Assembly: GCA_022560615.1 (NCBI GenBank)
Contig: JADFSR010000025.1
Span: 1-59,475 of the forward strand
Length of the DNA: 59,475 bases
DNA from: Gemmatimonadota bacterium
GTDB lineage: Bacteria > Gemmatimonadota > Gemmatimonadetes > Longimicrobiales > Gaopeijiaceae
Direction: 5' to 3'
Part shown: piece after piece, positions 19,220 to 42,369 of the stretch
Layout of the letters: every line of letters begins with the position of its first letter
How positions within the stretch are numbered: position 1 is the first letter of the stretch
Made by a program: the position numbers and the translations under genes
Notes under the pieces: generated by a model
The model's input: only the letters and a program-made list of their open reading frames with translations
Told to the model about the DNA's origin: nothing
Databases searched by the model: none

Positions 19220-19263
19220 GACGCCCTCGAAGCTCGGCGGCTACGCGTTCGCGAAGCGGGCGA

Positions 19264-19376
19264 CTCATCTTCCAATGGACTCTCGTCCATCGTAGGAGTT
19301 GGCACCTTGCGGAATTGCCACATTCCGCAGGTTGCCCCGGCGTCTAAGGGCCTGTCCCTCGACCGGTCTCGATGAG
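19264..19376 (-). promoter_or_regulatory. SAM-I (S-box) riboswitch aptamer
   Basis: Leader of metX on the minus strand. The conserved SAM-I blocks appear in order: CTCATCGAGACCGGTCGAGG, GACAGGCCC, GCCGGGGCAACC, a P3 hairpin GCGGAAT...ATTCCGC, AAGGTGCCAACTCC, a further hairpin ATGGAC...GTCCAT, and GGAAGATGAG. P1 closes by pairing CTCATC (19376-19371) with GATGAG (19269-19264). In the family, S-adenosylmethionine binding turns off methionine genes. Here it would control metX, the metB remnant and aspartate kinase as one unit. Confidence 0.93.
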
Positions 19377-19417
19377 CTGTTTGTGGCGCCAACAGTAGTC
19401 GATCCGGCTGGGGTAGG

Positions 19418-39240: not shown

Positions 39241-39645
39241 CTAGAGCGAGAGACCGCCCTCGTCTCCCTCGTCTCCCTCTGCTTCCTCACGGACGAGCGT
39301 CAGGATCGCGGCCTGCGGCACGACCAAGTAGTGATCGCCGTCGAATGTGATCTCCACGGCCGCGCGTCGGAAGAAGATCGCGTAGTCCCCGATCTGTGCC
39401 TGCACCGGCAGGTAGCGCGGCTCCGGCGCCCCGATCTTCCAGGGCTCGTCATCGAGCTCGGTGGGGGCGGAAAGCGCATTACCTGGACCCGTCGCGGCAA
39501 CGGTACCGCCCTGCACCGCCTGGTTGTCCACAGCGGTGGCGGGAAGATACAATCCGACTTTCGTTCGGTCCTCACCCTCTTCGGGCTGAATGAGAACCCT
39601 ATCGCCGACGACGATCAGCCTCTTCTTCTTCTTCCGTTCCGACAT
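39241..39645 (-). CDS. GroES-like co-chaperonin
   Basis: 134 residues. Three ATG codons stand in a row (39651, 39648, 39645); the last has GAGG six bases upstream and is chosen. LIVVGDRVLIQPEEGEDRTKVGLYLP and QGGTVAATGPGN are the GroES beta-barrel and mobile-loop neighbourhood, and HYLVVPQAAIL the closing strand. The protein has about 30 extra residues (ELDDEPWKIGAPEPRYLP) and an acidic tail compared with the usual ~95-residue GroES, and no groEL follows. It may be a specialised paralogue. Confidence 0.75.
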   Translation of the reverse strand: MSERKKKKRLIVVGDRVLIQPEEGEDRTKVGLYLPATAVDNQAVQGGTVAATGPGNALSAPTELDDEPWKIGAPEPRYLPVQAQIGDYAIFFRRAAVEITFDGDHYLVVPQAAILTLVREEAEGDEGDEGGLSL

Positions 39646-39746
39646 CATCATCCTCAGAAAGCGTGGGGACGAAGGCCGCGACAACGAGCCGGCCCGGCAT
39701 GCGAGTTGAAAGGTCGGGATCGGAGGGCGCCGCCTCAAGGGGCTTA

Positions 39747-40103
39747 GCAGCCCGTGGTAGAAGTACAGTGGGCCGCGCGCAGGGGTCTCGCGAGACCTGG
39801 AGTAGGCACGACGACGAGTCGTAGTTGTTCGGGCACCGCCGCCGAAGGCGGTGGTCCGAGGAGGAGAAACGACCTCCAGGGCCGCGACCCCCCTGCGCCC
39901 GACACCGAGTGTGACATACCTACCGGTTCGTGGGTTACGGTGGCACGGCCCCATCTCCGTCGTTGGAGCGCCTAGCCGTAGCGACGGCTATGGCGTCGTC
40001 GCCCCGCGACCCACGCTACGCGCGGGTGCCCTCTGGAGCCGTGGCACCCGGGGACCCGTGCGTAGCACGGGTGGCGGCCCGCTGTACTTCTACTACGGGC
40101 TGC
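39747..40103. mobile_element. MITE-like inverted-repeat element flanked by TA
   Basis: 357 bp with ~30-bp imperfect terminal inverted repeats: GCAGCCCGTGGTAGAAGTAC at 39747 and its complement GTACTTCTACTACGGGCTGC ending at 40103. TA lies directly outside each end, as expected of TA-duplicating elements (Tc1/mariner or IS630 type). Inside are several perfect hairpins: GGTCTCGCGAGACC (39784-39797), CACCGCC/GGCGGTG (39834-39853), TAGCCGT/ACGGCTA (39973-39990), GGGTGCC/GGCACCC (40024-40049) and CCCGTGC/GCACGGG (40055-40071). No gene inside. The right end forms the stop codon of the PfkB kinase gene. Confidence 0.8.
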
Positions 40104-41023
40104 TAGCGAGTGGGTCGGTGCTTCCTCATCTTGATGCGCGCCTCGCGCGCCCGGGAAGCGACCCCTCCCGCCGTCACCGCGAGCAAGCGATCAACCGAGA
40201 ACGACTCGACCGCCAGCGACCCCATCGCCACGGCGTGTCTGAGTGCCTCGTCCATCGCGGTGGGGGCAGGCCAATCGCGCGCGAGCGTCGCGACGAGACC
40301 ACCCCCGAAGGCGTCGCCGGCGCCCGTCGGATCCTTCACCTCCCGAGGTCGCGGGGCCGACACGGCGATCGCGCGATCGTGGCCAAACGCAATCGCGCCC
40401 TGGTCGCCGCGCTTCACAACGACCCACGAGCAGCCTTCTTCCAGGATCGGCCGAATACCGGCGGCTTGATCTCCGTCGCCCAACAGCAGCGCCTCTTCCT
40501 CGTTCAGTAGCAGGACATCGGCGCTGCGCGTCAGCAGACGCAGGTCGTCACTCCGATCCCGAATCCAATGCGTCATCGTGTCGAGCACGACGAGCGCGGG
40601 TGCGCCTGCATTGGCAAGCACCGATGCCTGGATCGATGGGTCGGTGCTCCCCAAGAAAAGGGCGGCCGGCCCCTTCCGGTCCCCCGGAACCTCGGGGGTC
40701 TCGGCGAGAGCCGTTTCGCGATTGGTGGACAACGTCTCCCGGTTCCCGTCCGGACCGTACCGGACGTGCCAGCGGAACGTCTCACCAGTGTGGCGCGACA
40801 GTCCGCCGACGTCGATACCGGCTTCGCTCAAGCGCGTGAGAAAGCGTTCGGGAAAGTCCTCGCCCACGACGCCGACGATCGCCACATCAGCCAAAACACG
40901 AGCGGCCGCGGCGAAGTACGGGGCGGACCCTCCGAGAACGTCGTGGGCCACTTCCCCGGCGGACTCGACCGTGTCGAGCGACACGGTACCTACGCCTAGG
41001 ACGGAAGGCCGCTTCTGGATCAC
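40103..41023 (-). CDS. PfkB-family sugar/nucleoside kinase
   Basis: 306 residues; GTG at 41023 overlaps the TGA of the nucleoside transporter (GTGA). Ribokinase fold: LGVGTVSLDTVE, LGGSAPYFAAAARVL, VGVVGEDFPERF, then the signature KDPTGAGDAFGGGLVATLA with the catalytic Asp. With a nucleoside permease directly upstream, an inosine/guanosine or adenosine kinase-like role is reasonable. The stop TAG is the first triplet of the MITE-like element at 39747-40103. Confidence 0.85.
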   Translation of the reverse strand: MIQKRPSVLGVGTVSLDTVESAGEVAHDVLGGSAPYFAAAARVLADVAIVGVVGEDFPERFLTRLSEAGIDVGGLSRHTGETFRWHVRYGPDGNRETLSTNRETALAETPEVPGDRKGPAALFLGSTDPSIQASVLANAGAPALVVLDTMTHWIRDRSDDLRLLTRSADVLLLNEEEALLLGDGDQAAGIRPILEEGCSWVVVKRGDQGAIAFGHDRAIAVSAPRPREVKDPTGAGDAFGGGLVATLARDWPAPTAMDEALRHAVAMGSLAVESFSVDRLLAVTAGGVASRAREARIKMRKHRPTR

Positions 41024-42369
41024 ACGAGCATCCCGGCGAACGCCGCCGTGAGCAGAGCCGCCAGCAGGCCGGCGAACATCGCCTTCACGCCCAGCTTCGC
41101 GAGGTCGTGTCGTCGTTCTGGCGCGATCTCTCCGACGCCCGCGACCGTCATCGCCACAGAGCCGAAGTTGGCGAACGTCGCGAGCGCGTAAATGGCGATG
41201 ATGAGCGACCGCTCGTCGAGCGCCGCACCCGCGGCGAGCACCGCCTCCAGTTGCACGAAAGCAACGAACTCGTTGAGCACGAGGTCCACCCCGATCATCT
41301 GACCCACCAACCCTGCGTCCGACCACGGCACGCCGAGCATCCACGCCACGGGGGCGAACAGCGACCCGAGCATGCCGTCGATGGTGAGGCTCTCGAAGCC
41401 GGCCAGCCCCCCCGCCCAGCCCACGACCCCGTTCGCCAATGCGATCAACGCGACGAAAGCGATCAGCATCGCAGCCACGACCAGCGCGAGCCGCAGCCCC
41501 TCCGCGGCCCCGCGCGCCGCTGCGTCGATCACGTTCACATCCGGCCTTTGCGGCTCGATGTCAAGCGTGTCGGAGGTCGCGGGTTCCCCGGTCTCGGGAA
41601 CGAGCAGCTTAGCCATCACCAAGGCGCCAGGCGCCGACATGATCGAGGCGGCGATCAAATGTCCCGCGGCTTCGGGCTGATACGGGAGCATCATTCCCGC
41701 GTACGCGGCGAGGACGCCTCCGCTGATGGTTGCCATTCCCGCGGTCATGATCGCCATGAGCTCCGACTCCGTCATCTTCGCGATGAACGGCTTGATGACG
41801 AGCGGAGACTCCATGAGGCCCACGAAGATGTTCGACGCGGTACAAAGCGTTTCGGCGCCCGACGTACGCATGGTCCGCTGCATCACCCACGCAGCACCCC
41901 GTACGACCACTTGCATGATGCCGAGGTGGTACAACACCGTCATGAGGCACGCGACGAAGATGATGTTCGGGAAGATGCGGAAAGCGAAGAATGCCCCGGT
42001 TCGTGCCACCGCACCCGGCGTCGCGGTGAAGTTCTGGTTCGCGTCGAGGGTTCCTATGGGGACGTTGTCCGAGACGAGGTTCCCGAAAACGAACCGCCCC
42101 CCCTGCTCCGCGTAGCCGAGCACCGCGCGCACGAGACCGTTCATCCATTCAAAGAACGTCACGCCGAGCGGTGTTTGCAGCACCAATACCGCGAACGCGA
42201 GCTGCAGCCCGAGCCCCCACCCAACGACACGCCACGAGATTCTGGCCCGATCGGTGGAAAGGGACCAAGCGATGGCGATCAGCAATATGGCACCGACCAG
42301 CGCGCGCAGGCGCGCAGGCGTCGCCGCCGCGAAAGAAGGATCCTGAAAGAGAAGCGCGAGGCCGCTCAC
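41020..42369 (-). CDS. nupC: Concentrative nucleoside transporter (CNT/NupC)
   Basis: 449 residues; GTG at 42369 overlaps the stop of the upstream lipoprotein gene (GTGA). Sodium- or proton-coupled nucleoside uptake at the inner membrane. Family motifs: ASNIFVGLMESPLVIKPFI, TISGGVLAAYAGM, LIAASIMSAPGALVMAKLL and NEFVAFVQL, plus FANFGSVAMTVAGVGEIAPE near the C-terminus. The frame is open well upstream but only inside the previous gene. Confidence 0.92.
   Translation of the reverse strand: MSGLALLFQDPSFAAATPARLRALVGAILLIAIAWSLSTDRARISWRVVGWGLGLQLAFAVLVLQTPLGVTFFEWMNGLVRAVLGYAEQGGRFVFGNLVSDNVPIGTLDANQNFTATPGAVARTGAFFAFRIFPNIIFVACLMTVLYHLGIMQVVVRGAAWVMQRTMRTSGAETLCTASNIFVGLMESPLVIKPFIAKMTESELMAIMTAGMATISGGVLAAYAGMMLPYQPEAAGHLIAASIMSAPGALVMAKLLVPETGEPATSDTLDIEPQRPDVNVIDAAARGAAEGLRLALVVAAMLIAFVALIALANGVVGWAGGLAGFESLTIDGMLGSLFAPVAWMLGVPWSDAGLVGQMIGVDLVLNEFVAFVQLEAVLAAGAALDERSLIIAIYALATFANFGSVAMTVAGVGEIAPERRHDLAKLGVKAMFAGLLAALLTAAFAGMLV

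Follow-up and report, generated by a model that had tools for sequence, protein, structure and literature searches.

Between a PfkB-family kinase gene and a GroES-like gene of a Gemmatimonadota bacterium lies a short stretch with inverted ends and flanking TA dinucleotides, and the question raised by this locus is whether the stretch is a mobile element and, if so, what moves it. The window, that is the whole stretch of DNA analysed, is 59,475 nucleotides long and comes from a 4.5-Mb genome. A sequence-only reading had proposed a TA-flanked element at 39747-40103 that separates the two genes. These coordinates proved exact and give a 357-bp element with TA directly outside each terminal inverted repeat (TIR), at 39745-39746 and 40104-40105, and the domains of both neighbors (PF00294 and PF00166) were confirmed. 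The 30-bp inverted ends of that reading are present as the TIRs (39747-39776 and 40074-40103), but are imperfect, with 28 of 30 positions paired; a repeat finder, which counted in the flanking TA, reported a 32-nt inverted repeat of 94% complementarity. The parts of the window copy and its neighbors are as follows.

39241-39651, minus strand: GroES-like (Cpn10) ORF on the opposite side of the element from the kinase (PF00166).
39745-39746, no strand: left TA target-site copy (from the sequence; TA duplication inferred from the filled/empty comparison, clearest at locus L012).
39747-39776, plus strand: left TIR, end type A (GCAGCCCGTGGTAGAAGTAC...); the outer 16 bp match the insertion sequences (IS) at L069 (14/16) and L251 (14/16).
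39777-39898, minus strand: hairpin unit 1 (P2), closing stem GCGCAGGGGTC / GACCCCCCTGCGC, inverted homologue of unit 2.
39831-39856, no strand: optional hairpin module GGGCACCGCCGCCGAAGGCGGTGGTC within unit 1, present or absent across the aligned copies.
39898-39930, no strand: variable linker joining hairpin units 1 and 2, with the highest column entropy in the element.
39930-40076, plus strand: hairpin unit 2 (P3), conserved more widely than any other part; matched by model R1 at 39930-40054.
40008-40031, no strand: optional hairpin module GACCCACGCTACGCGCGGGTGCCC within unit 2; other copies have CTAGGA there.
40050-40074, no strand: optional hairpin module GGGGACCCGTGCGTAGCACGGGTGG, which stands in for a short CGTAAC of other copies.
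40074-40103, minus strand: right TIR, from the inverted-repeat comparison.
40103-41344, minus strand: PfkB-family kinase ORF, mechanical start (PF00294).
40104-40105, no strand: right TA target-site copy, from the sequence.

The PfkB stop codon TAG (40105-40103) consists of the TA of the target site followed by the outermost base of the element, and the N-terminal extension of the GroES-like ORF into the element given by the ORF list was taken as spurious. The element has no transposase gene, and none of the ORFs belongs to it. The interior had been described as a row of five perfect hairpins, a count that did not hold: three hairpins are perfect (stems of 6 bp or more, loops of 3-8 nt), against a mean of 0.9 in shuffles, together with the loopless perfect palindrome GGTCTCGCGAGACC and imperfect hairpins. 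Folded as a single strand, the whole 357-bp element gave -239.5 kcal/mol (z -12.8 versus dinucleotide shuffles). The element had no Rfam match at the gathering or a relaxed threshold and we found no published description, in keeping with the earlier suggestion that the family is undescribed; our literature search for such an element in Gemmatimonadota, in which subscription journals were outside coverage, returned nothing. The sole Rfam match in the window is a SAM riboswitch (RF00162, 80.5 bits) at 19262-19378 on the minus strand.

The other checks proposed by the sequence-only reading were for further copies, for empty sites and for a full-length element having the same ends and a transposase; the absence of other copies and of empty sites in close relatives was to count against mobility. 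Both were found. A BLAST search of the source genome with the element gave 40 distinct interior places, and a model of the right half of the element gave ten additional copies, mostly with other end types, for at least 50 copies in all. A genome of the same genus (G001) gave 28 BLAST matches, and further genera within the family and the order also carry copies. A 111-position model of unit 2 (R1) matched 41 of the 395 Gemmatimonadota genomes of our phylum sample at E <= 1e-4; nine candidates per genome were scored, so that per-genome counts are lower bounds. The positive genomes belong to four families (f1, f2, f7, and f8) of one class, and those matches that bear names are without exception Gemmatimonadetes/Gemmatimonadota MAGs. 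The plasmid, phage and viral collections searched contained no match. Many copies are situated at contig ends. A 169-bp shorter relative with ends CTAGTGTACCGTTGCAGAAG (L068, in G025:C1) is possibly a separate subfamily; many copies in that genome matched only the innermost hairpin.

When the flanks of six insertions were joined in silico, each gave an uninterrupted alignment to G001, and hence all six sites, the window site included, are empty in that genome. The cleanest was L012, where the empty site ACTAGT became ACTA-[element]-TAGT, a 2-bp TA duplication; this is the one empty site at which the duplication is base-perfect, the other five having diverged near the junction. With small shifts tolerated, about 24 of 40 copies have TA on each side, and 38 have it on one side or more. 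The insertion target is thus (C)TA(G) with duplication of TA, and the insertions are recent enough for same-genus sites to be empty. Insertion at long open frames (20/40) was no commoner than at control sites (57% for TA and 29/68 for CTAG), so the PfkB stop codon case is not a rule. At L024, near 1477 (G000:C28:50975-51061, 51085 on), a type C element abuts a type A remnant at the latter's CTA end; the CTAG at the end of one element serves as the target of the next insertion. Given the copies, empty sites and TA duplication, the element is a non-autonomous transposon (MITE).

Comparison of the copies indicated how the element is built. Its TIRs are about 16-30 bp long and were tabulated for 40 or more copies. 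In the different genera the element in its basic form measures about 300-314 bp; some forms are shorter, near 275-280 bp, and the listed copies span about 170-411 bp; the window copy reaches 357 bp because of its optional hairpin modules. In many copies model R1 also hit unit 1, there on the opposite strand (best score 58.1 bits, E 3.5e-9), and the two units aligned with 54-62% identity, although in the window copy their homology is seen by alignment only (54%). The element thus consists of two related ~110-bp hairpin units in inverted orientation, with a variable linker between them and a long TIR stem around them. At five or more places the copies differ in whether they contain a short hairpin module (GGGCACC..GGTCGC or the reverse). 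At L007, L063, L010, and L022, modules of ~25 nt with this asymmetric frame occur at varied places, in both orientations and in place of short segments, and may themselves constitute a smaller unit that is mobile or arises by template switching. Deletion derivatives with a single unit (L260, 220 bp; L065, 208 bp) or with one TIR folded onto itself (L035, L041, and L058) were also present. Four loci (L035, L041, L055, and L058), around position 1502, have 34-bp solo copies of the form TAGCAGCCCGTGGTAGAAGTACAG(Y)GGGCTGCTA, one TIR self-closed, three of which share an identical junction, as if the interior had been lost between the GGGC repeats of both TIRs.

The core occurs with at least six types of ends.

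Type A: GCAGCCCGTGG
Type B: AAGGCTGTTGAAG
Type C: AAGGGTGATCGGAAA
Type D: GGGAGCCTCTGCACA, with the flank form CTA-GGGAGCCTCTGCACAAG
Type E: GCAGGTCGCTGAA
Type F: GGAGCCTGTCCGAGTA

These ends led to candidate partners, as complete IS1182/IS5-type insertion sequences of the class have ends flanked by CTA..TAG that match those of the element at 13-16 of 16 positions. The IS of this genome (L069) reads CTA-GGAGCCCGTGGCAGAAA..-TAG, encodes a 472-aa DUF772/DDE transposase and matches type A at 14/16 positions, as does L251; the ends of L249 match type B (16/16), those of L226 type C (14/16) and those of L245 type F (13/16). The best IS match to type E was 12/16, and among the IS inspected none matched type D or its variant D2. 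DUF772 and DDE_Tnp_1 domains were found in the proteins of L069, L249, L251, and L226. Scores with the IS1182 family model NCBIfam NF033551 (cut-off 270) were 336.9 bits for L226, 249.3 for L249, 196.3 for L251 and 164.7 for L069, and the L249 transposase was above the IS5_4 cut-off. L069 (G000:C88, 1278-2743) is the single complete IS1182/IS5-like element of this genome and its right end is the contig end; a search of 22 genomes found no relatives of its transposase in other genomes. An IS1182-type transposase was present in 9 of 41 carrier genomes (22%) versus a background of 69/394 (17.5%), two samples that differ slightly, and we saw no association between the presence of the element and that of IS1182. 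In G121, the ends of the IS do not match the small elements of the same genome. Derivation of the core from the interior of an IS was considered and rejected, as BLAST found significant matches in the TIRs only.

The TIRs, the short length without a transposase gene, the dispersed copies and empty sites, the TA duplication and the IS with the same ends are together the hallmarks of a MITE. They make it very probable that the window element is a Gemmatimonadota MITE moved in trans by IS1182/IS5-group DDE transposases, much as the sequence-only reading had supposed in postulating a non-autonomous element of a TA-targeting transposase; these transposases are probably its mobilizers.

On a tree of unit 2, albeit from a short alignment (112 columns), about 24 changes of end type are needed versus a minimum of five, and the branches with strong support by themselves require four or more changes for types D and F. 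Near-identical cores with different ends are adjacent on the core tree, as with L023 (type D) beside L025 (type A). The ends of different types are related to each other, and because types A, B, and E differ at just 5-6 of 20 positions, some A/B/E exchanges may have arisen by parallel substitution and not by swapping. We infer that both ends are exchanged simultaneously, and a core with the ends of several transposons apparently rides on many of them. The six or more end types might instead belong to several MITE families without common origin, whose cores became similar by convergence or because a host hairpin was captured repeatedly. This we think quite improbable, given that the 111-position model of unit 2 aligns over its full length whatever the end type or family, that the inverted-pair layout and total of ~300 bp are constant across both, and that copies with almost identical cores but different end types are intermixed on the core tree; moreover, no host gene or RNA with the same core outside a TIR-bounded element has been found so far. 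The inverted pair of hairpin units with its linker also resembles a BIME, and 34-bp solo TIR hairpins exist, as would be expected of a REP/BIME-like element that a Y1 transposase (RAYT/IS200-IS605) mobilizes through its hairpins in single-stranded form. That mode of movement seems very improbable, since near-perfect TIRs and TA duplication at an empty/filled pair are DDE features and the complete IS sharing the ends encode DDE transposases. As the linker is the most variable part and its surroundings are conserved, it could in principle be a guide to the target site, like a bridge RNA or omega RNA. The linker matched its own flanks (mean local score 6.74) no better than those of other copies (6.62) and the target is simply (C)TA(G), which leaves the guide proposal a negligible chance.

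The row of hairpins had suggested to the sequence-only reading that a transcript may fold. This is physically likely, the fold being very stable. The core could be a functional structured RNA (a regulator, processing site or trans-acting RNA) carried by the transposon, with the compensatory changes due to selection on the transcript. In 133 distinct unit-2-like sequences 94.2% of cells were paired, 28 of 32 pairs were changed on both sides, and the 691 double-changed cells were not equaled in any of 500 shuffles; these figures lean towards structure, since the alignment was fitted to it and includes opposite-strand and unit-1 matches. G-T pairs are conserved at a few unit-2 positions, and in 42 of 46 copies the fold of the plus strand is slightly better than that of the minus strand. 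However, selection on one strand predicts a large excess of G-U over A-C in the stems, whereas with pairs defined by Watson-Crick pairing alone the two were about equal: 21 versus 19 distinct interior contexts in the own-genome set plus close relatives, and 107 G-T versus 131 A-C cells for unit 2 across the phylum. Unit 2 has one conserved G-T and one conserved A-C position near each other. Furthermore, units 1 and 2 being inverted homologues, a single transcript contains both strands, and Rfam gave no match. Selection for RNA structure is therefore unsupported and a functional RNA core is unlikely; given the G-T/A-C symmetry the palindromes look to be maintained at the DNA level. Stem complementarity may result from fold-back correction, which needs no selection, or from a selected DNA hairpin.

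For the MITE moved in trans we propose that DDE transposases of the IS1182/IS5 (DUF772 + DDE_Tnp_1) group would cut and insert the element, with the outer 16 bp deciding which transposase serves it. The core of paired ~110-bp hairpin units would be kept while the ends swap between IS types, and the stem arms would be kept complementary in DNA, most simply by fold-back (quasipalindrome) correction in replication, possibly with additional selection for a DNA hairpin that aids mobility. The persistent double-hairpin core with promiscuous ends is unusual and goes beyond an ordinary MITE. A tentative, rather doubtful extension is that the element is a long-lived hyperparasite of transposases: the inverted DNA hairpin pair would be the selected entity, promoting its own mobilization and persisting across the class by re-tipping both ends at once with available IS1182/IS5-type recognition sequences.

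The significance of the element would be that one core, conserved across Gemmatimonadota families, outlives its ends, which track different transposases. This makes testable both partner switching by a non-autonomous element and whether the hairpins aid transposition or record fold-back correction. In practical terms, it accounts for a repeat that breaks assemblies, many copies being at contig ends, and offers phylogenetically informative insertions for an uncultured group.

Bacterial MITEs are usually viewed as deletion derivatives of one IS. BIMEs are inverted REP pairs of hairpin units plus linker that are not known to have TIRs or a target duplication and have a Y1 partner; the element is like them in its inverted hairpin-unit pair and linker, but differs in having TIRs and TA duplication. 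Among short TA-ended repeats, RUP is ~107 bp and ERIC/IRU is 127 bp with a 7-bp TIR; the latter is not known to have a partner. ERIC/IRU has TA at its ends, a target duplication and a long intergenic palindrome (PMC2229807), all features of our element, but lacks the double-unit core. The Correia/NEMIS repeats of Neisseria share with it TA-flanked TIRs and size variants through an internal block and give a stem-loop transcript (PMC2229807); they differ in their 107/155-bp lengths, in ~24-bp TIRs of a single kind and in the RNase III processing proposed for them. The IS427 group of IS5 makes mostly 2-bp duplications, and a 4-bp duplication came from the one IS1182 member captured in Paracoccus (PMC3281130). 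The IS1182 and IS5 (IS427 group) elements resemble ours in ending at CTAG/TA and in the kinds of TIR, but encode a transposase and have no interior sequence in common with it. The RUP element of Streptococcus pneumoniae is a TA-ended MITE with TIRs like those of IS630-Spn1 and is presumed to be mobilized in trans (PMC2229807). Our element is likewise a MITE with TA at both ends and TIRs resembling identified IS, but whereas RUP has one TIR type and an IS630/Tc1-type partner, this element is ~300-400 bp and has many end types and IS1182/IS5-type partners.
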